Shown piece by piece: positions 1,557 to 36,677 of a stretch of 40,836 bases of DNA (the first letter of the stretch is position 1; each line of letters starts with the position of its first letter). This DNA comes from Nitrososphaerota archaeon. GTDB taxonomy: Archaea; Thermoproteota; Nitrososphaeria; Nitrososphaerales; Gagatemarchaeaceae. The position numbers and the translations under genes were made by a program. The stretch is from contig JAPCJP010000014.1 in assembly GCA_027886885.1 (NCBI GenBank), positions 1-40,836 of the forward strand, written 5' to 3'. The notes under the pieces are model-generated. The model was not told where the DNA came from, searched no databases, and saw nothing but the letters and a program-made list of their open reading frames with translations.

Positions 1557-4500
1557 GCCTCGAGAGCCTCCAACTCGGCCTCACGCCCGGGGAAGTAGCG
1601 GTGGTACGGAAGACGTTGGGGAGGGAACCCAACGAGGTCGAGTGGTCCATCATCGACGCCGAGTGGTCCGAGCACAGTAGCTACAAATCATCTAAGGCGC
1701 TGCTCCGCCTCTTCCCCACAAAGGGCAAGAGGGTCCTCCTGGGCCCCGGTTACGACGCGGGCGTCGTCGATGTCGGCGATGGCTACGCAGTCACCCTGCA
1801 CATCGAGAGCCACAACCACCCCTCAGCCGTGGACCCGTACGGCGGCGCTTCGACCGGGATAGGCGGGGTCCTCAGGGACATACTCTCGATGGGGACGCGT
1901 CCCATCGCCCTCGTGGATATCCTCCGCTTCGGGAACATCGAGAAGAGCCCGCACTCCAGGTGGCTGTTCAACAACGTGGTGAGGGGCATCGCGGACTACG
2001 GCAATTGCATCTCCGGGGAAGATCAGGTCTACTTTACGAACTCTAGTACTTTTCACGTGGCGGAAGCCAAGAATTTGTTCGACAATTTCGCCAAGGAGAA
2101 GAAACTCGTTCCCGAGTTCGGCCGAAAGGACCTTACCATAAGCAGGCCTAATGTCGACTTGCGAGTTCTCTCTTTCGATTTCGAGCATAGGGAAGCCCGA
2201 TTCTGCCGAGTCTCAAGAATGTATGAGGCGAAGGTCAGCCGTCTGCTTCGCATAAAGACTGCTTTAGGTCGAACCATCTCGGTAACGCCTGACCACCCAA
2301 TGTTTGTGGTGAAAGATGGCGTCGTTCGGACTCGGAAGGCTGAGGAGCTTAGGGCGGGCGATTCTGTTCCAATCGCGCTTGACTTCCCTTTCACAAAGGA
2401 CCAGGCGACCACGGCAGTCATTGACATCATCGAAGAGTTGAGCTTCAGAAAGAATCTGGATGGAATAACCGTGAGCCTAAGGGGCCGTGGATTGAAGGAG
2501 TGGAGAACACAGTTAGACACGCTTTTGCGAAAAGTCGGAGTCAGCGCGTCCCAACGCTCACATTACCTCAATTACAACTACCTCCCACTGAAAACCTTCC
2601 TGGCGGTTGAATCGGATCCGGCATTTCCGATAGCCAGGAAAGATTTGCTCCTGTACCCACGCCGTGGTAGGGTGACAAAGATACCAGCGGTAATTGCGAT
2701 AGATTCCGATTTCGCTAGGCTTACAGGTTATTATTTGGCTGAGGGATGCAGGTATGATGAGACAGGAGCGCTGTCAAAAGGAAAGACCTCTAGGATTATT
2801 TGGACATTCAGAACGGATGAATTAGAGTACATCGACGACCTATGCGCGATCCTCGAAAAACTAGGAATCAGATACGGGAGACGCCAGACGAAAACAAATG
2901 CCGTTCAGATCAGAGTCTCCTCTCAAATTCTTGGCTGGATTTTTCGCGAGGTACTACAAGCGGGAAAGGACTCGTATTCGAAGAAGATCCCTAATCAATA
3001 CTATCATCTTCCGCGGGAACTCAGTTTTGAAGTCCTCAAGGGCATCGTGAGGGGAGATGGGTCCCTTGACGCAAGGTCCGAAACTTCTTCTGCCCGTGTT
3101 CGATTTGGGAGTTCGAGTTCTGTATTATTTCAGCAAGTCCTGCTGTTGTTCCAATCTCTCGGATATGTCCCATCTACTACGACGACGGTCCACACGAAAG
3201 GCACGGTCCCCTTCCAGGAGCTTACTATTCATGGAAGGACCGGAATCAAGTCTCTCAAATCCATGTTCTCAAGAGACGTCATGTCGAAGGCCGAAGGAAG
3301 ACTTGCCAAATATTCAGAGCCAGCAATGGAACACTATCGTAGCCAGAGACACGGAAACTTTGCAGCTGTGAAGATTTCAAAGATCGACGAGCTCGCAGGA
3401 GATTTCAGCGTCTACAACTTCGAGGTTGAAGGAACCCACAACTATGTCACCTCAGGTGGTATCATTACCCACAATTGCGTGGGGGTCCCCACGGTCGCAG
3501 GCGATATCGAGTTCGATGAAAGCTTCGAGAGGAACTGCCTGGTCGACGTGGCTTGCGTCGGTCTGGGGAGGGCGGACGCCCTGATCCTCGGGGAGGCGAA
3601 GAACCCGGGGGATGTCCTGGTCCTGGTTGGCGGGAGCACCGGGCGGGACGGCATCAAGGGAGCCACCTTCGCTTCGAAGAACCTCTCCAAGAGCGCCGAA
3701 GACGATCGCTCGTCGGTGCAGGTGCCGGACCCGTTCATGAAGAAGCTCCTGCTGGATTCGCTGCTCGAGGCCGCGGCCACAGGGCTGATACGGGGGATGA
3801 AGGACCTCGGCGGGGGCGGTCTCTCGACGGCGCTTTCGGAGGTCGCGTCCAGCGGAGGGACCGGGGTCGACGTGGACCTCGAGAGGGTAAGAGCCCGGGA
3901 AGGCGACATGTCTCCCGCTGAGATAATGACCTCCGAGTCGCAGGAGCGCATGCTGCTCATGCTCTCCACGAAGGGGTCCGAACCTGTCCTGAGCACCCTC
4001 GACAAGTATGAGGTCCCCTATTCAGTGATCGGCAAAGTGACCAGTGACGGCACTCTTACCATTCGATGGCAGGGCAAGGTGGTCGCTAGGTTGCCAGCAG
4101 AGTTCGTGGTAAAAGCCCCATTGATACCGTGGCCCAGCCGCCGCCCGAAGGCCATCCGCGTCAGACACTCTCGATTCCCGCGGAGATCGATGTCTCGTCT
4201 GCTTCTCTCCCTGCTCGCCTCGCCGAACATCGCGAGCAAAAAGTGGGTCTACCGACAGTACGACCACGAGGTGGGGTTGAGGACGGTCCTGCGACCCGGC
4301 CAGGCGGACGCCGCGCTGATGAGGCTCCCAAACGGGCGCCTGCTTGCGATCAAGGGCGACGGCAACAGCGCCCAGGTTGCGCTAGACCCTTACAACGGAG
4401 CTGCCGGGTGTCTTGCGGAGGCGTGCAGAAACGTCGTCTCCGTTGGAGCCGAGCCCATAGCCATGGTCGACCACCTTCAGTTTGGCGACCCTTCAGACCC

Positions 4501-5206
4501 CGAGGTCTACTGGTCGTTCTCGGAATCGATCAGAGGTATGGCGGACTATTGCTCGGCCCTGGGGATTCCCGTGGTCGGTGGCAAGGTGAGTTTCTACAAC
4601 GAGGACGCCGGTTCCGGGCGGGCCATCAAACCTTCCCCTATAGCCTTGGTAGTGGGCTTGGTCGATGACTCGAGGCACATCCCTTCACTAGGTTTCACCA
4701 AGGACGCGTCCATCGTCGCCGTGGGAGGGACCGACTCCGAGCTGGGAGGGTCGGAGTTCAATCGCAGGTTCGGTCTGAACGGAGGAGGCGTTCCAAAGGT
4801 CAATCCCAAGAACGACGGCGCCCTCTACGGGACGATCCTCGAGTTAATCAGGTCTGGTCGCGTGGGTTCGGTCCATGACTGCTCGAGAGGTGGCTTGGGA
4901 GTCGCCCTGAGCGAGATGTGCGCGGCCGGAGACATCGGGGCCGACGTAACGCTTGACAAGGTTCCAGGAGGATGGAAGAACGCGCACGAGCTGCTCTTCT
5001 CGGAGTCCCACGGTAGATTCCTAGTCGCAGGGAATGACCCCGTGGCCATTAGCGGCGTGCTAGCATCCGCCCATCTTCCTCACGCGGTCATCGGGAGGAC
5101 CGGCGGGAATGAACTCGAGGTGAAGGTAAACGAACGCGGCCTTTCTCTCTCCGTTAAGACCATCGCGGCGAGCCTTCAGGGGACCATCCCGAGGCTGATG
5201 CAGTGA
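1553..5206 (+). CDS. purL: PurL, FGAM synthase large subunit, intein-containing
   Basis: PurL uses ATP and ammonia from PurQ to convert FGAR to FGAM. The precursor is about 1217 residues; removing the 490-residue intein leaves about 727, the normal size of small archaeal/Bacillus-type PurL. Extein motifs include LGLTPGEVAVVRKTLGREPN, WSEHSSYKSSK (often WSEHCSYKSS, so Cys to Ser), HIESHNHPSAVDPYGGAST, the first-half GIADYGN-C-VGVPTVAGD and the second-half GMADYCSALGIPVVGGKVSF. The usual N-terminal LTPxE segment lies before the first GTG (1601), and the only start-like codon there is CTG at 1553, overlapping the purQ TGA and preceded by GGAGGTG. I choose CTG. The end overlaps purF as GTGA/TGATG. 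The region between the two extein halves is an insertion, not a frameshift, because the reading frame is open throughout. Confidence 0.93.
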   Translation: MSLESLQLGLTPGEVAVVRKTLGREPNEVEWSIIDAEWSEHSSYKSSKALLRLFPTKGKRVLLGPGYDAGVVDVGDGYAVTLHIESHNHPSAVDPYGGASTGIGGVLRDILSMGTRPIALVDILRFGNIEKSPHSRWLFNNVVRGIADYGNCISGEDQVYFTNSSTFHVAEAKNLFDNFAKEKKLVPEFGRKDLTISRPNVDLRVLSFDFEHREARFCRVSRMYEAKVSRLLRIKTALGRTISVTPDHPMFVVKDGVVRTRKAEELRAGDSVPIALDFPFTKDQATTAVIDIIEELSFRKNLDGITVSLRGRGLKEWRTQLDTLLRKVGVSASQRSHYLNYNYLPLKTFLAVESDPAFPIARKDLLLYPRRGRVTKIPAVIAIDSDFARLTGYYLAEGCRYDETGALSKGKTSRIIWTFRTDELEYIDDLCAILEKLGIRYGRRQTKTNAVQIRVSSQILGWIFREVLQAGKDSYSKKIPNQYYHLPRELSFEVLKGIVRGDGSLDARSETSSARVRFGSSSSVLFQQVLLLFQSLGYVPSTTTTVHTKGTVPFQELTIHGRTGIKSLKSMFSRDVMSKAEGRLAKYSEPAMEHYRSQRHGNFAAVKISKIDELAGDFSVYNFEVEGTHNYVTSGGIITHNCVGVPTVAGDIEFDESFERNCLVDVACVGLGRADALILGEAKNPGDVLVLVGGSTGRDGIKGATFASKNLSKSAEDDRSSVQVPDPFMKKLLLDSLLEAAATGLIRGMKDLGGGGLSTALSEVASSGGTGVDVDLERVRAREGDMSPAEIMTSESQERMLLMLSTKGSEPVLSTLDKYEVPYSVIGKVTSDGTLTIRWQGKVVARLPAEFVVKAPLIPWPSRRPKAIRVRHSRFPRRSMSRLLLSLLASPNIASKKWVYRQYDHEVGLRTVLRPGQADAALMRLPNGRLLAIKGDGNSAQVALDPYNGAAGCLAEACRNVVSVGAEPIAMVDHLQFGDPSDPEVYWSFSESIRGMADYCSALGIPVVGGKVSFYNEDAGSGRAIKPSPIALVVGLVDDSRHIPSLGFTKDASIVAVGGTDSELGGSEFNRRFGLNGGGVPKVNPKNDGALYGTILELIRSGRVGSVHDCSRGGLGVALSEMCAAGDIGADVTLDKVPGGWKNAHELLFSESHGRFLVAGNDPVAISGVLASAHLPHAVIGRTGGNELEVKVNERGLSLSVKTIAASLQGTIPRLMQ
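2006..3475 (+). mobile_element. PurL intein with LAGLIDADG homing endonuclease
   Basis: This is an in-frame 490-residue insertion in the conserved PurL motif GIADYGN|C-VGVPTV. It begins with Cys1 (CISGEDQV) and ends with IITHN, followed by Cys+1 of the C-extein, so all splicing residues are present: Cys1, block B TPDHP (Thr94, His97), penultimate His489, Asn490 and Cys+1. Two endonuclease motifs are visible, LTGYYLAEG at 239-247 and VLKGIVRGDG at 343-352, with acidic residues Glu246 and Asp351 where catalytic acids belong. Block F/G is VYNFEVEGTHNYVTSGG. The segment is visibly more A/T-rich, with less biased codons than the extein, consistent with lateral arrival. I predict an active splicing element; endonuclease activity is plausible but unproven. 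Confidence 0.95.
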
Positions 5207-27358: not shown

Positions 27359-29659
27359 CTATCCGCTTCCTTGAGCGGCTCGATCTTTCCCGACCTCATC
27401 AGAGACGCTAGTTCGATCCGACGAGAACCTTCGGAGGACGTTCTCCGTTATCTTGGCGACATTGTTTCCCTGCGATGGCCGCGGGAAGCACCCGCACCAC
27501 GAGATTGACCCCACAGAGAACACGGCTCCTCCCTTCGGATATTCCAGGAGCACCATGTCTGCGCGAACTAGGGGGCTAGTCGAGCCCGTCTGGTCCGGTT
27601 CCATGTGATTGAGTTCCTCGATGGCGTGAAGGTATGAATCAGGGAACGCCGTGGACCTGGCCAAGAGCTTGGTGTGCCCGGGCGTGCCCTGGTCGAAGGC
27701 AACGCGGTCTATCTCGAAGCCAGCCGCGCCGTGCTCGAGGACCTCGTTGTCAAGGTCGCCGATGAGCTCATCCTTCCCGATGCCCTCGAAGACGAAGGCG
27801 ACCTCGGGGTCGAAGCTCTGCGGCATGCGGCGATATGGTCGGTTGACATCGACCCCCTCGCCCGAGAAGCCCACACCGACCAGCTTGTGCTCCGCCCTTC
27901 CCCTGTTCCTCCAGCTCCCGCCCATCTCGCCGGTGGTGCTGTGATGATACTCGCCCGGTTCTGAGCGCCAGCCCTGGGTGGCTCCCCACCTCCTAACCTC
28001 GAAGAGATGGGCCCTCTGCGGGTCTATGGAGGTCACCCAATAGAAGCCGTTGCCCCCCAGGTACATCATCCTCCCACCGCCTTTCAGGTATGCTTCCATC
28101 GCGTCGAGCATTTTCTCTGTGTAGTACTCGGGGTGCGACCCCGTGAGGACTACGCGGTACGGCCGCAGGAGTTCGAGGCCCTCGTCGTGCAGGTCTTCGT
28201 CCGTGATGACATCGAAGTCGAACCCCTTTTGCTCCATCCATTCAGCGAGGAAGAGGTCTGCGCTCAAAAGATGGGCTGCGCCCTTCCCGGATGAGAGGTG
28301 GGCTCCAAGGAAGCCTGGCCTCATCGCTAATAGCGGCTTCAGCCTGCTGGTCATCGAGACCCCGGAACCGTCCCTGTGGAGATCGTAGAGCCCGAGTAAC
28401 CTGTTCGTCACGTTGTACCGTTCGAAATCCCGCGCCGGGTAAACGGTCCCGAGGCCCCTTAGCGCTTTGATATCGGCCTGCGTGTACGAGTGGAAATTCG
28501 AGTACGCGATATAGGTCAGGGTGGGGAGGAGGAATGCGATGCTCGCGTGACGACCCCTTTCTGGTGGCCTGACGATGAACGGGATGTAGTCCTCGCTCCC
28601 TGCGGACTCCAGATGCACGGCGTAGACCCCGCTCTTCATCCCGCTCGGGACTTTCAATGTGAAGTCCGGAAGCCATCCGGCATCATCCAGGTCGTCCTCG
28701 TGGAAGTAGATGGCTCCATACTGCTTCGGAGCCAACCTGAAGTCCATCTCTCTCCCCTTCCAGTTGTAGCCCGTAACGGCCCGCTTCGGGACATTGACGG
28801 CCCACCCGTTCATCTCGTGACCGGAGACGTCCGTCACCCTTGCGGACATGATGTCGGACGAAAAGTCCCAGGAGGCCACAAGGTTCGGTTCGAAGGCTCC
28901 CGGAGGCATGCCGAGCGCGAGCGACTCGAACTCCTCCACGGAGAGGGCCTTCGAAAACATGCGGGGACTGTCGAGCTTTCCGTTGAAGAACCCAGTCGCT
29001 CCTAGGCCTCCTCCCTGGCGCTCTTCCTGTGCCCCTATCATGACGTTTGCCCCTCCCAAGGAGCAATCCGGAGAAGCTGGGCCCGAATCGTTGTAGGCGT
29101 TAGACCCTCCGGGCCATTCTATCACAGAACTCTGGTAGAGAACAAGTCGACCGCTAGCTTCGTAGCTGCATCCTACACAATACCATTGCTTCGCCTCGAT
29201 CGGTAACTCTGAGTGAATGCCATCAGGTCCCCCTACGCTCACTGCAAGTCTTCCCATCTCGTCAAGGAAGAGGGCGAAGGCCCCACGCGGCCCTGAGCTG
29301 GAGACGATCACCTGTCGCCCCGCCCCGGGAAGCGTCGGGTAGACCCAAGCCTGGAACGAGAAACTCTCGAGCATCCCGAGGGTGGGCTTCGAGGGAATCA
29401 CCACGTACGAGCCTCTGTGGAACGTCTCCCTCTTCCCGATGTGTTCCCCGTTCAGCGACGATTGGACCTCCGTGGTCCTGGGATGACCACCGTGAAGCGT
29501 CGCACTGCCCACCAACCTCACGAGCCGAGCGCGATATGACGGAGCGTCGCAGCTTACCATGAACGCGATCTCGTCGCCATCCCTGACGGACAGCTTGTTC
29601 GCGTAACCCACTATCGGCATTGAATTCTCAGGTTGAGCCTCATTAGTCCGCTCGGACAT
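27359..29659 (-). CDS. N,N-dimethylformamidase large-subunit-like protein, copy 1
   Basis: This 766-residue protein resembles the large (beta) subunit of N,N-dimethylformamidase, an iron amidohydrolase. The N-terminal part carries a LamG/concanavalin-like beta-sandwich (about 95-250: ESFSFQAWVYPTLPG, FNGKLDSPRMFSKALS), and the C-terminal half has AFLLPTLTYIAYSNFH, LYDLHRDGSGV and LTGSHPEYYTEKMLDAME. Tyr383 or Tyr386, Tyr425 and Glu511 have about the spacing I recall for the Tyr-Tyr-Glu iron ligands of the Paracoccus enzyme, so a 2-Tyr-1-Glu iron site is inferred. No small subunit gene is nearby. It has a promoter 28 nt upstream and lies back to back with copy 2. It probably hydrolyses an amide bond, substrate unknown. 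Confidence 0.78.
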   Translation of the reverse strand: MSERTNEAQPENSMPIVGYANKLSVRDGDEIAFMVSCDAPSYRARLVRLVGSATLHGGHPRTTEVQSSLNGEHIGKRETFHRGSYVVIPSKPTLGMLESFSFQAWVYPTLPGAGRQVIVSSSGPRGAFALFLDEMGRLAVSVGGPDGIHSELPIEAKQWYCVGCSYEASGRLVLYQSSVIEWPGGSNAYNDSGPASPDCSLGGANVMIGAQEERQGGGLGATGFFNGKLDSPRMFSKALSVEEFESLALGMPPGAFEPNLVASWDFSSDIMSARVTDVSGHEMNGWAVNVPKRAVTGYNWKGREMDFRLAPKQYGAIYFHEDDLDDAGWLPDFTLKVPSGMKSGVYAVHLESAGSEDYIPFIVRPPERGRHASIAFLLPTLTYIAYSNFHSYTQADIKALRGLGTVYPARDFERYNVTNRLLGLYDLHRDGSGVSMTSRLKPLLAMRPGFLGAHLSSGKGAAHLLSADLFLAEWMEQKGFDFDVITDEDLHDEGLELLRPYRVVLTGSHPEYYTEKMLDAMEAYLKGGGRMMYLGGNGFYWVTSIDPQRAHLFEVRRWGATQGWRSEPGEYHHSTTGEMGGSWRNRGRAEHKLVGVGFSGEGVDVNRPYRRMPQSFDPEVAFVFEGIGKDELIGDLDNEVLEHGAAGFEIDRVAFDQGTPGHTKLLARSTAFPDSYLHAIEELNHMEPDQTGSTSPLVRADMVLLEYPKGGAVFSVGSISWCGCFPRPSQGNNVAKITENVLRRFSSDRTSVSDEVGKDRAAQGSG
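28019..28135 (-). repeat. 117-bp perfect inverted repeat, arm 1 (in copy 1)
   Basis: Every base of this segment is the reverse complement of 31307-31423 in the divergent paralog. It encodes 39 residues (HPEYYTEKMLDAMEAYL onward to SIDP) with no synonymous change, while codons on both sides differ freely. A shorter 26-nt identical block (27771-27796 with 31646-31671) lies downstream in both genes. Confidence 0.93.
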
Positions 29660-29683
29660 TGCGGGCGCACTTACCCCTTTGCT

Positions 29684-29691
29684 GCTTAATC
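29684..29691 (-). promoter_or_regulatory. TATA-like box for dimethylformamidase-like copy 1
   Basis: The minus strand reads GATTAAGC, centred about 28 nt before ATG 29659, giving a nearly leaderless mRNA. Confidence 0.5.
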
Positions 29692-29733
29692 AACAGATGA
29701 GCAGGGAGGGGTCGTTTCTGCGAAATCGCATTA

Positions 29734-29741
29734 GCTTTTAG
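29734..29741 (+). promoter_or_regulatory. TATA-like box for dimethylformamidase-like copy 2
   Basis: GCTTTTAG predicts initiation near 29764, about 7 nt before ATG 29771. The 111-bp interval between the paralogs therefore holds two divergent promoters. Confidence 0.4.
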
Positions 29742-29770
29742 CGGTGCCCCGGTTTGCCTAGGGGCCGACG

Positions 29771-32029
29771 ATGAGCGACCCCGGAAACAATCCGATGCCC
29801 GTAGTCGGTTACGCGGACAGATTGAGCGTTGCGCCGGGGGACACGATACAGTTCAAGGTCAGTTGTGACCTTCCGTCCTATCATGCCCAGATAGTGAGGA
29901 TCCGGCACGCGAGCGCGAATCCGAAAGGTCCCGGCAGGAAAGAGGAGATGGTTCAGACCTCGGTCACCGGCGATTATCCGGGGAAGAAGGAAGAGTACAG
30001 GTTGGGCTCCTACGTCTTCGTGCCCCTGGAAGGTAGACCGTCCATCGCCGTGGAGGGGTTCTCCATCCAAGCCTGGGTGCTGCCCTCCATGCCGGCGAGA
30101 GGTCTCCAGTGCCTGGCCTCTGGCGTCTCCAGGGATGGGTCCTCGTTTGGTCTGTTTCTGCACCCTGAGAACGGGGTCGAGTTGAGAATAACCGATTCTT
30201 CCGGGGCTGTGCGATCGGTTCATGCCGGTAGAGCGATGCGGCCTGGCCAGTGGGCTTTCGTGGCCGGATCCTACGATAGTGGCACTGGGCGCTGCACCGT
30301 CGTTCAGTCTCCGGTACATGAGTGGCCCGACGATGAGTCGTCTGCCCGGGCGGAGGGTCACGTTAAGGAAGGACCTCTCGGTCGCATGGACGGGTGGATC
30401 ACCATAGGCGCCCGGCGCGAACCGGGTCCGGGGCTGCCTCGGTCGACACAGCACTTCAACGGCAAGATCCAGGCCCCGCGCTTCTTCTCGCGTCCGTTGT
30501 CAGCCCTCGAGCTGGAAGAATTGCGCCTCGGGGTTCCGATTTCGAAGTTCCGGGACGCCCTCCTAGGGGCGTGGGACTTCTCCTTGGACATAATGTCCAC
30601 GAAGGTCAGCGATGTGTCCGGGCTAGGCCTCGACGGGATCACTGTGAACAACCCCAAGAGGGCCGTCACTGGGCACGATTGGACCGGCGCGGAGGTGGAT
30701 TTCAGGAGAACGCCGAACGAGTACGCGGCCATTTACTTCCACGAGGACGACCTGGAGGATTGCGAGTGGGAGACTGATTTCGAGTTCAGGGTTCCGTTAG
30801 ACTTCCCTACTGGAATCTACGCCGCCTCCCTCAGCACCGGGGTGCACACGGACTACGTCCCCTTCTTCGTCAGACCACGCCCAGACGGGCCAAAGTCGAG
30901 GATCGCGTTTCTGATACCGACTCTCAGCTACATGGCCTATGCCAACTTCCACGCCGTGGACAACATCATTGCCAGGGAGTATGCACGGCCGGGCTTCCGT
31001 TATCCGGTCGCGCCGATAGACAAGTACCTTGTGAAGACGAACCTCAAGGGCTTCTACGACCTGCACATCGACCTGACGGGCGTGAACTATGTCTCGAGAC
31101 GGATGCCGCTCATGGACATCCGCCCCGACTTCGAGGACCCTCTGCTTGACCTGGGGAGAGGCGGGATGCACCAGTTCCCCGCGGACACGTGTCTGACGGA
31201 CTGGCTCGACGTCAAAGGCTTCCACTACGACATAATCACGGACGAGGACCTCCATGCCGAGGGGGTCGATCTCCTAAAGCCGTACCGCGTCGTTCTCACG
31301 GGGTCCCACCCCGAGTACTACACAGAGAAAATGCTCGACGCGATGGAAGCATACCTGAAAGGCGGTGGGAGGATGATGTACCTGGGGGGCAACGGCTTCT
31401 ATTGGGTGACCTCCATAGACCCGGTACGTCCGCACATTATCGAGCTCAGGCGCTGGGGTGGGACTCAGGGATGGAGGACGCAGCCCGGCGAGTATTATCA
31501 CAGCACCACCGGCGAGCTGGGCGGGCTCTGGCGAAACAGAGGCAGAGCACCTCAGAGGCTTGTTGGCGTCGGGTTCACCTGTCAGGGCATCGACAACAAC
31601 GTGCCATACAGGCGCATGCCCGGGAGCTTCGACCCTAAGGTCGCGTTCGTCTTCGAGGGCATCGGGAAGGACGAGCTCATAGGTGATTTCGAGAACCTCG
31701 TCAACGAGCGGGGTGCGGGCGGTTTCGAAGTCGACCGACTCGATTACAAGCTCGGCACCTCCCCCAAGGCGTTCCTCCTGGCGACGGCGAGGGGCTTCAG
31801 CGACGCCTACCAGGCGGCGATCGAGGATGTCGACGAGCCAGACTCAAAGCAGAGCGGATCAGTGAGCCCCTTCGCAAGGGCGGACATAGTCTACCAGGAC
31901 TATCCGAAGAAAGGGGCTGTCTTCTCGGTCGGCTCTATCTCTTGGGTATCGTGCCTCAGCTACAATCGCTACGACAACAACGTCTCCAGAATGACCGAGA
32001 ACGTACTGAGGAGATTCGTCGCCGACTAG
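29771..32029 (+). CDS. N,N-dimethylformamidase large-subunit-like protein, copy 2
   Basis: This 752-residue paralog of copy 1 is similar from end to end, in the same order: N-terminal MPVVGYADRLSV, LamG-like sandwich (about 95-250), GAWDFSLDIMSTKVSDVSG, LIPTLSYMAYANFH, GFYDLHIDLTGVNYVSR and GSHPEYYTEKML. The proposed iron ligands are Tyr387 or Tyr390, Tyr429 and Glu515, with exactly the spacing of copy 1. The DED segment IITDEDLHAEGVDLLKPY precedes the shared 39-residue block. It differs most in the LamG part and the C-terminus, suggesting different substrates or a hetero-oligomer. The head-to-head arrangement allows co-expression. No signal peptide is seen, so it acts in the cytoplasm. Confidence 0.78.
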   Translation: MSDPGNNPMPVVGYADRLSVAPGDTIQFKVSCDLPSYHAQIVRIRHASANPKGPGRKEEMVQTSVTGDYPGKKEEYRLGSYVFVPLEGRPSIAVEGFSIQAWVLPSMPARGLQCLASGVSRDGSSFGLFLHPENGVELRITDSSGAVRSVHAGRAMRPGQWAFVAGSYDSGTGRCTVVQSPVHEWPDDESSARAEGHVKEGPLGRMDGWITIGARREPGPGLPRSTQHFNGKIQAPRFFSRPLSALELEELRLGVPISKFRDALLGAWDFSLDIMSTKVSDVSGLGLDGITVNNPKRAVTGHDWTGAEVDFRRTPNEYAAIYFHEDDLEDCEWETDFEFRVPLDFPTGIYAASLSTGVHTDYVPFFVRPRPDGPKSRIAFLIPTLSYMAYANFHAVDNIIAREYARPGFRYPVAPIDKYLVKTNLKGFYDLHIDLTGVNYVSRRMPLMDIRPDFEDPLLDLGRGGMHQFPADTCLTDWLDVKGFHYDIITDEDLHAEGVDLLKPYRVVLTGSHPEYYTEKMLDAMEAYLKGGGRMMYLGGNGFYWVTSIDPVRPHIIELRRWGGTQGWRTQPGEYYHSTTGELGGLWRNRGRAPQRLVGVGFTCQGIDNNVPYRRMPGSFDPKVAFVFEGIGKDELIGDFENLVNERGAGGFEVDRLDYKLGTSPKAFLLATARGFSDAYQAAIEDVDEPDSKQSGSVSPFARADIVYQDYPKKGAVFSVGSISWVSCLSYNRYDNNVSRMTENVLRRFVAD
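31307..31423 (+). repeat. 117-bp perfect inverted repeat, arm 2 (in copy 2)
   Basis: Partner of 28019-28135. Identity starts after a mismatch at 31306 and ends after 31423. Just upstream, codons for ITDEDLH and neighbours differ at several silent sites, so identity is confined to this tract. Confidence 0.93.
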
Positions 32030-34353: not shown

Positions 34354-34397
34354 ACCAAAAGCCGAGATGGATGTTCGAATTTCGCAACTTACCAAAT

Positions 34398-34405
34398 GCT
34401 TATAT
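34398..34405 (+). promoter_or_regulatory. TATA-like box for the import operon
   Basis: GCTTATAT predicts initiation near 34428, about 6 nt before ATG 34434. It therefore supports that start rather than ATG 34371, which lies upstream of the box. Confidence 0.55.
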
Positions 34406-34433
34406 CCGGAATTTCGAGCAATCGGGCTTGCAG

Positions 34434-36677
34434 ATGCAACTATCCAGACGTAAGGGTATCTCGACTCCGATAATAGCTATTGTAATTGTGGTGGTCCTTG
34501 TGATTGCTGCGGTCGCAGCATATGAACTCTCGAGGAGCAATGCTACTTCGACGACCAGTTCGTCGTCGACGAGCTCGACATCCTCATCGAGCACCACTTC
34601 GATAACCAGCCCAACGACCACGACTAGCGTTAACACCGCTACGGGTACAGGGCCGACGACCTTGACTTGGGATACCGGGTTTGCACCTTCTGTCATGGAC
34701 ACTAACCTCGGAGGAGCCGGCGGTGCTCTCGACATTGTGATCTCTGAGAACACCAACGAGCAGCTCCTCTGGTACAACGGCAGCTGCGGGACCTGTGTAG
34801 TCCCATGGCTGGCGCAGAACTACTCGGTAAGCTCCAACGGCCTGGTCTACAGTTTCACCCTGAGGCAGGGTATCAAGTTCCAGGACGGAGAACCCTTCAA
34901 CTCGAGCGCCGTCTACTTCAGCTTCAACCGGATGCTCGTCGATGACTCCAGCGCCTTCTTCGGGCACGGGGTCGGCTTCAGCTTCGAGATACAGCAGTTC
35001 CTGAACAACGCCTACGATGGTGCTCTCTGCGGCTGCAGCGAGACCTACAATGACACCTTCGTGAACCACGTCCTGGCCGAGAACTTCGTCCAGGTAACGG
35101 GCACGTACACCTTCAACCTGAACTTCCAGGTCCCGTTCACAGGTGTGCCGTACCTGCTGGCTTCGGCGAACTTCGCGGACATTGTTGCACCCGGGTTCGT
35201 CATGACCCACGACATCCCGTTCTGGTCCCTGGCCAGCAACAATTACACGCTACCTTACAAACTGCCTTTGAGTGGTAACGCCACCACGCAGTACCATGAG
35301 TATTACGACGACCTCATGGCCACCTGCAACGCTGGCGTGACGCCCTCTGGATGCGGACAGTCCTACCAGGACGTCTCCCCCATCGCTGGATCGCCCGGCT
35401 ACAATGGACCGGTCGAGTCTGGGACGGGTCCATACGTGGACGCGGGCTGGGACCACACCACCAACGTGGTGACACTGACGGCGAACAACAACTACTGGGG
35501 TGGAGGCTGGGTTTCGAAGATCAAGCCATACTTCCAGACTATTGACATAAAGCAGACTACACAGGACACGACGAGGGCGCTAGACCTCACCACAGCGGCC
35601 AAGTCCGGCGCGGCCCTCGTGACTGACACCGACCTCGCCCAGGTCCAGAACATCATCAACAGAAATGCATGGCTCGACAACCACACCATGATCTCTGTGA
35701 TTCCGGGCGTGACTGTGAACGGGCCTAACCCGATCTCTGAGGTGAACTTCTTCAGCATCGCCGACAACAACACGAACCCATTCACGGGCAAATACCTCAC
35801 CTTCCAGCCTTGGTCTGATGTCAGGTTCCGACAAGCCATAGGTGACTCTGTGAACATATCGGCGATCAACCAGGCCGATAACCTAGGCCTGGCGCTACAG
35901 GTGGACTCGCCTGTCTCGCCGGCATACAGTCCTACGGGAGCATACAACACCTCCACGACTCCGGGGTACAGTTACAACCCAGACATGGCCGCTCAGCTCC
36001 TGTTGTCGATGATGAAGTCCCCGACAACCACGTTCCACTTCTACAATGGAACGCTGGCCAAGCCGGGCTTCTTCAACAACACCTTTGGCTGCACGGCTCT
36101 CGGCGCGAACAACCAGTGTTCCAACCCGGTCACTCAGACCGTCCTATTGCAGGCCGACCCGACCCGCGCCTACGACACTGCGATTGCGACCGCAATAGTG
36201 GAGTCGATGAACAACATCAGCGCGGCCTACAACCTGGGTCTGACCTTCAACGTCCAGTCCCTCAGCACCTCGCAGATCGGTGCCTACCAGTACGGTGTGA
36301 TTGGTAGCATCCCCTTCTGCTGGGACGGTGGCTGGCCGATGTTCTACCCATACGTGCTGGACGCACTAACTGGCACTGCGAGCCAATCTGCGGCTGGATA
36401 CCCATACATCGACCGGGACAACGTATCTGCCCTGAACACGCTCTACAACGAAGCCTTCACAGCTGCGACCACCGGAAACAGCACTGGGTTCATCCACCTG
36501 ACTTGGAAGATCGAGCAGTACCTGAACAACCAGGCCTACTACATCATCGAGGGTGAGCCAGAGTACATCACGGCGACCACCTCGAACATTCATGGGTACT
36601 TCTTCAACCCCTCCCTCATCACGGACGAGTTCGGCAGCGGAACGATGTACTTCGCTGCCTGGTACTCCACGGCCTAA
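34434..36677 (+). CDS. Dpp/Opp-type solute-binding protein with pilin-like signal
   Basis: This 747-residue protein is the extracellular receptor of an oligopeptide/oligosaccharide-type ABC importer (SBP family 5: SFTLRQGIKFQDGEPFNSSAVYFSFNRM split motif near 140-170). The N-terminus LSRRKGISTPIIAIVIVV looks like an archaeal class III (pilin-type) signal, with cleavage expected after Gly8. A Ser/Thr-rich linker (about 37-75) follows, likely glycosylated and lifting the domain off the membrane. At least eight cysteines come in close pairs (SCGTC, LCGC, ATC..SGC, FGC..QC), suggesting disulfides outside the cell. It leads the operon, with 2 nt to the first ATPase. Ligand unknown; archaeal members bind peptides or sugars. 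Confidence 0.9.
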   Translation: MQLSRRKGISTPIIAIVIVVVLVIAAVAAYELSRSNATSTTSSSSTSSTSSSSTTSITSPTTTTSVNTATGTGPTTLTWDTGFAPSVMDTNLGGAGGALDIVISENTNEQLLWYNGSCGTCVVPWLAQNYSVSSNGLVYSFTLRQGIKFQDGEPFNSSAVYFSFNRMLVDDSSAFFGHGVGFSFEIQQFLNNAYDGALCGCSETYNDTFVNHVLAENFVQVTGTYTFNLNFQVPFTGVPYLLASANFADIVAPGFVMTHDIPFWSLASNNYTLPYKLPLSGNATTQYHEYYDDLMATCNAGVTPSGCGQSYQDVSPIAGSPGYNGPVESGTGPYVDAGWDHTTNVVTLTANNNYWGGGWVSKIKPYFQTIDIKQTTQDTTRALDLTTAAKSGAALVTDTDLAQVQNIINRNAWLDNHTMISVIPGVTVNGPNPISEVNFFSIADNNTNPFTGKYLTFQPWSDVRFRQAIGDSVNISAINQADNLGLALQVDSPVSPAYSPTGAYNTSTTPGYSYNPDMAAQLLLSMMKSPTTTFHFYNGTLAKPGFFNNTFGCTALGANNQCSNPVTQTVLLQADPTRAYDTAIATAIVESMNNISAAYNLGLTFNVQSLSTSQIGAYQYGVIGSIPFCWDGGWPMFYPYVLDALTGTASQSAAGYPYIDRDNVSALNTLYNEAFTAATTGNSTGFIHLTWKIEQYLNNQAYYIIEGEPEYITATTSNIHGYFFNPSLITDEFGSGTMYFAAWYSTA

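Follow-up and report, generated by a model that had tools for sequence, protein, structure and literature searches.

A 117-bp tract shared by two diverged dimethylformamidase-like genes of a Nitrososphaerota archaeon points to local gene conversion

Comparison of two neighboring, divergently transcribed genes from a Nitrososphaerota archaeon (Gagatemarchaeaceae) revealed a perfectly identical stretch of 117 bp covering part of the predicted active site, and local, non-reciprocal gene conversion between these inverted and, judging by their sequences, anciently diverged paralogs is probably the best explanation for it. The genes, here called A and B, lie within a window of 40,836 nucleotides, which is the whole stretch of DNA that was analysed (contig JAPCJP010000014.1 of assembly GCA_027886885.1; contig C41 of a 2.16-Mb, 122-contig genome that is 73% complete). 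An initial annotation of this DNA had proposed gene conversion or recombination between divergent paralogs, a proposal that is supported by a silent-site test on the gene pair; the codon variation of their relatives argues against a constraint on the nucleotides themselves.

Genes A and B belong to the N,N-dimethylformamidase family

Gene A (27359..29659, minus strand) and gene B (29771..32029, plus strand) are 111 bp apart and encode proteins of 766 and 752 amino acids, respectively, that resemble the large subunit of N,N-dimethylformamidase and combine a Laminin_G_3 domain with a DMFA2_C domain. Pfam matches to DMFA2_C had E-values of 1.1e-91 for A and 6.9e-83 for B, with scores of 308.5 and 279.6 bits against a gathering cut-off of 27, and Laminin_G_3 was matched in A with an E-value of 9.5e-12. 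A phmmer comparison aligned gene B over its whole length with the large subunit of the Paracoccus enzyme (PDB 6lvb; E=9.9e-143), which has the same domain order. In Paracoccus N,N-dimethylformamidase the iron ligands are Y399, Y440 and E521, residues H519, N547 and E657 are essential, and N547 is the proposed oxyanion stabiliser (PMC7686228). In the alignment to 6lvb these six positions correspond to Y390, Y429, E515, H513, N541 and E653 of B, such that all of the reported iron-ligand and catalytic residues are kept in B, and the 2-Tyr-1-carboxylate iron site and the catalytic His, Asn and Glu are likewise kept in A and in the relatives. A and B are thus members of the N,N-dimethylformamidase large-subunit family by sequence, and are predicted to be iron-dependent amide hydrolases. 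Their substrate may be an amide other than dimethylformamide, because B is matched over its whole length, if somewhat more weakly (E about 1e-122), by the related N-acetyl-(R)-beta-phenylalanine acylase (8i5a, 8huy) as well. An open reading frame at 34371-36677 that was suspected from its length to be a third paralog proved to encode a solute-binding protein (Pfam SBP_bac_5), and was rejected.

An identical tract within diverged genes

The identical tract occupies codons 509-547 of gene A (HPEYYTEKMLDAMEAYLKGGGRMMYLGGNGFYWVTSIDP; 28019..28135, minus strand) and codons 513-551 of gene B (31307..31423, plus strand). As first described, the two arms form a perfect inverted repeat, each the exact reverse complement of the other, and both begin at codon phase 0, which places 39 codons of each gene in the same frame. 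At 117 bp the tract is the longest exact match between A and B, followed by runs of 26, 23 and 20 bp. Between the arms lie 3,171 bp (28136..31306), made up of the 111 bp that separate the genes and the 5' part of each. A gapless repeat search of the window found a single inverted repeat of at least 30 bp, a 579-nt pair (27684-28262 / 31180-31758) that is 77% complementary and encloses the arms. The tract itself is present twice in the genome assembly, both times at this locus, and a search of that assembly (2.16 Mb, 73% complete) found no third copy.

Silent sites set the tract sharply apart from the rest of the pair. Over the 702 codons aligned outside it, A and B share 57.0% of their nucleotides and 351 residues (50% protein identity), and the same codon is used at 154 of 336 identical degenerate residues, whereas inside it all 39 residues and all 34 degenerate codons are identical. 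In 20,000 permutations of the silent codons a run of 34 was never reached, the largest being 19. The edges are abrupt, with a silent mismatch at codon 508 of A and a non-silent one at codon 548. Among the 210 pairs that can be formed from 21 family members, the next-longest exact run was 55 bp, in a far more similar tandem pair, and identity of this kind is present in the A/B pair only. The annotators' reading of the locus, in which silent differences are absent over 39 codons while flanking codons for similar residues vary freely, was therefore accurate, and the contrast along the paralog alignment is confined to the tract. No changes were found over its 27.3 synonymous sites, giving a 95% upper limit of 0.10 for the synonymous difference. 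Because the difference accumulated since the event is bounded at about 0.10, the event can be called recent, as had been suggested, in relation to the strongly diverged rest of the two genes, and in that relative sense only.

The tract contains one iron ligand and two catalytic residues. In B, the codons of H513 and E515, equivalent to Paracoccus H519 and the iron ligand E521, are found at 31307..31315 and that of N541, equivalent to the proposed oxyanion stabiliser, at 31391..31393 (plus strand); in A the equivalent H509 and E511 are encoded at 28127..28135 and N537 at 28049..28051 (minus strand). The repeat had been described as centred on the proposed catalytic Glu, which needs correction: of the 39 residues, the iron-ligand Glu (A E511, B E515) is the third, close to the 5' edge, and the catalytic equivalent of Glu657 (A E649, B E653) lies outside the tract, as do both tyrosines, although the tract still covers part of the active site.

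Probable gene conversion between inverted neighbors

A and B are neighbors in inverted orientation, which provides the proximity that conversion needs. One copy would have suffered a break or held a stalled intermediate, and its repair would have used the other copy, which lies inverted 3.2 kb away, as the template. Pairing may have been seeded where the genes are best conserved and chance identity is highest, in the segment encoding the Glu that binds iron together with the catalytic His and Asn, and copying would have stopped where A and B differ again. At most 117 bp would have been copied, and perhaps slightly fewer, as bases that match at the edges are not assignable to the event. That the process was conversion and not reciprocal exchange, that one gene served as template, and that repair was the route are probable readings of the identical patch, its sharp edges and its restriction to this pair.

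This pattern resembles interlocus (ectopic) gene conversion between duplicated genes, of which the Salmonella tuf genes are an example (PMC5485169; review, PMC3924818): the paralogs reside on the same chromosome and identity is confined to a patch. According to a maximum-likelihood analysis in that review, mean conversion tracts measure on the order of 10 to 100 bp (PMC3924818). The length of the A/B patch falls within that order. Experimental cases such as tuf involve nearly identical copies, whereas A and B are just 57% identical in DNA outside the patch, are inverted neighbors, and belong to an uncultured archaeon. As an example of a known process the patch is clean, and it does not represent a new kind of system. 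Its interest lies in the strong divergence of the paralogs, in the uncultured archaeal host, in the statistical clarity of the case for conversion and in the content of the patch, an iron ligand and two catalytic residues. Patches of this sort can keep active sites alike while the remainder of the enzyme diverges, and can mislead trees that are built from the patch segment.

The homologs nearest to A and B within the genus are only about 50% identical to them, too distant to polarise the direction of transfer or to identify the donor. An attempt to assign the donor by GC3 was rejected, since the halves of the genes showed no contrast (A 0.742/0.798, B 0.772/0.783).

There is a slight hint of similar events elsewhere. 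In the tract columns, two paralogs of a related genome (G006C40 and G006C51) use the same codon at 19 of 27 positions, compared with 8 of 24 and 12 of 24 in cross-genome pairs (quartet Fisher p=0.04, uncorrected), an excess that loses significance on correction. Recurrent conversion in that genome is unproven, but the excess of shared codons, if true, would make the tract segment a recurrent hotspot.

Alternative explanations

Reciprocal recombination would account for the tract if a crossover in the conserved segment had inverted the inner 3.2 kb, so that A and B swapped their N- and C-terminal parts, and if conversion close to the crossover had made the arms identical; such a segment might flip repeatedly, but we consider this unlikely. 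Given inverted arms that share a frame, inversion could in principle take place, and inverting 28136..31306 would leave both reading frames open while swapping the N-terminal (508 and 512 amino acids) and C-terminal parts of the proteins. The initial annotation had raised inversion of this segment, and its estimate of the size and its geometric argument both stand, but we saw no sign that inversion has occurred. Phylogenetic trees gave a partial indication of exchange: residues 9-508 place A and B as sisters, each on a long branch (support 98.6/91), whereas with residues 548-735 the two separate and B groups weakly with G005C8/G006C40 (84.4/44). This conflict is weakly supported, however, and GC3 does not separate the halves. 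No recombinase was found among the window proteins scanned with Pfam, which were part of the ORFs, and no strain with the other orientation was seen.

In shufflon-like exchange, invertible loci carry their inverted repeats within coding genes. The A/B locus is similar to these loci in having in-frame inverted repeats in divergent genes, where recombination would give intact hybrid proteins, and differs from them in having no recombinase in the scanned proteins, no site-specific repeat structure and no observed alternative orientation. It is very unlikely that the locus is a working exchange system, in which the arms would recombine repeatedly, swap the halves of the two amide hydrolases and homogenise the iron-site segment, with the population carrying hybrid enzymes.

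An assembly artefact could take two forms: the repeat may have been collapsed although one true copy lacks the tract, or the inner segment may have been joined the wrong way round. The genome is fragmented, and when the first 300 bases of 120 contigs were compared with the last 300 of 40 (short contigs masked), eight pairs of contig edges overlapped by exactly 55 bases and no other overlap length was seen. One of these pairs involves the window: its positions 1-55 are identical to the final 55 bases of C1, another contig of this genome, making C1 a graph neighbor of the window contig. Exact 55-base end overlaps are the mark of a de Bruijn assembler (SPAdes-type) ending at k=55. Because 117 exceeds 55, the repeat would have been one collapsed edge in such a graph, and the concern over assembly collapse voiced in the initial annotation was justified to that extent.

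By the logic of the graph, however, the risk is to the orientation of the inner segment and not to the identity of the copies. The four joins between repeat and flank rest on observed k-mers, so that 55 bp inward from either end of each copy, and therefore at least 110 of its 117 bases, should be supported by reads in their own context; only in the central 7 bp or so could differences have been lost to bubble popping. The edge must also be passed twice, since the inner segment leads from the repeat back to the repeat's own reverse complement. An unresolved repeat would, in addition, normally break the contig, and we judge the chance of an artefact of either form to be slight. The orientation of the inner 3,171 bp would not be fixed by the graph and would have to come from reads or read pairs that span 117 bp, and since the pairing of gene halves depends on it, the full-length sequences of A and B carry this caveat. 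With the opposite orientation, the gene halves would instead pair as A(1-508)+tract+B(552-752) and B(1-512)+tract+A(548-766), with frames open either way. The repeat therefore marks a spot at which short-read assembly could join the wrong gene halves. We also looked for hidden repeats at contig breaks near the same segment in two other genomes (G002:C88 and G751:C16), but these were rejected, as the contig ends had no repeat-length match among the retrieved sequences.

The probability is slimmer still that both copies were overwritten from a third donor, such as a further member of the family in this genome or a homolog that came in from elsewhere. Such a donor could lie in the part of this 73% complete genome that is missing, and an N-terminal fragment of a third dimethylformamidase-like homolog, cut by the contig edge, is in fact present in contig C12 (G000:C12:17-415). 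The tract of A and B is nearest to the homolog G002C67, with 79% nucleotide identity compared to 47-67% in the flanks, but a comparable rise is seen in other conserved pairs in this segment. Overwriting from a third source would, moreover, require two events with the same edges, and the assembly holds the tract just twice.

A nucleotide-level constraint, such as an overlapping RNA or regulatory element that kept the copies identical without recombination, is highly improbable: the tract does sit in one of the best-conserved protein segments of the family, but other archaeal homolog pairs vary freely in the same 39 columns, sharing just 437 of 885 same-residue codons (49%), with no pair fully identical and a highest DNA identity of 83%, while the window had no Rfam match and the tract folded no better than shuffled sequences (z = +1.4). 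These comparisons argue against conservation of the segment across the family as the explanation for 117 bp of identity.

Relatives and genomic surroundings

Matches to the TFIIB family mark the genome as archaeal; applied to 14 control genomes, that search returned TFIIB in four archaea and in none of the others. Homologs of A and B were found in three other members of the genus and in one further member of the family. Close orthologs were absent from the seven other genomes of the genus, from the family (46 genomes) and from a phylum sample of 398 genomes, and the phylum sample yielded no further homolog at E<=1e-50. In the class to which a Dehalococcoidia relative belongs, 20 of 393 genomes carry homologs. 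A Dehalococcoidia genome encodes a highly similar tandem pair of the same enzyme family (G481:C5:55218-59867), with exact runs up to 55 bp, and paired paralogs of the dimethylformamidase-like family thus recur in distant hosts.

The genes around A and B (18050-40019) include an M20 peptidase, an amidohydrolase, an HpcH aldolase, an FAA hydrolase, a luciferase-like monooxygenase and an MR/MLE enolase, as well as a family-5 solute-binding protein and parts of an ABC transporter, and from their domain content these genes look like a catabolic island. Farther upstream in the window, a purL-like gene with AIRS and AIRS_C domains (1601-5206, plus strand) contains an intein, with the Intein_splicing match spanning residues 189-625 and a LAGLIDADG_3 endonuclease domain at residues 476-545.
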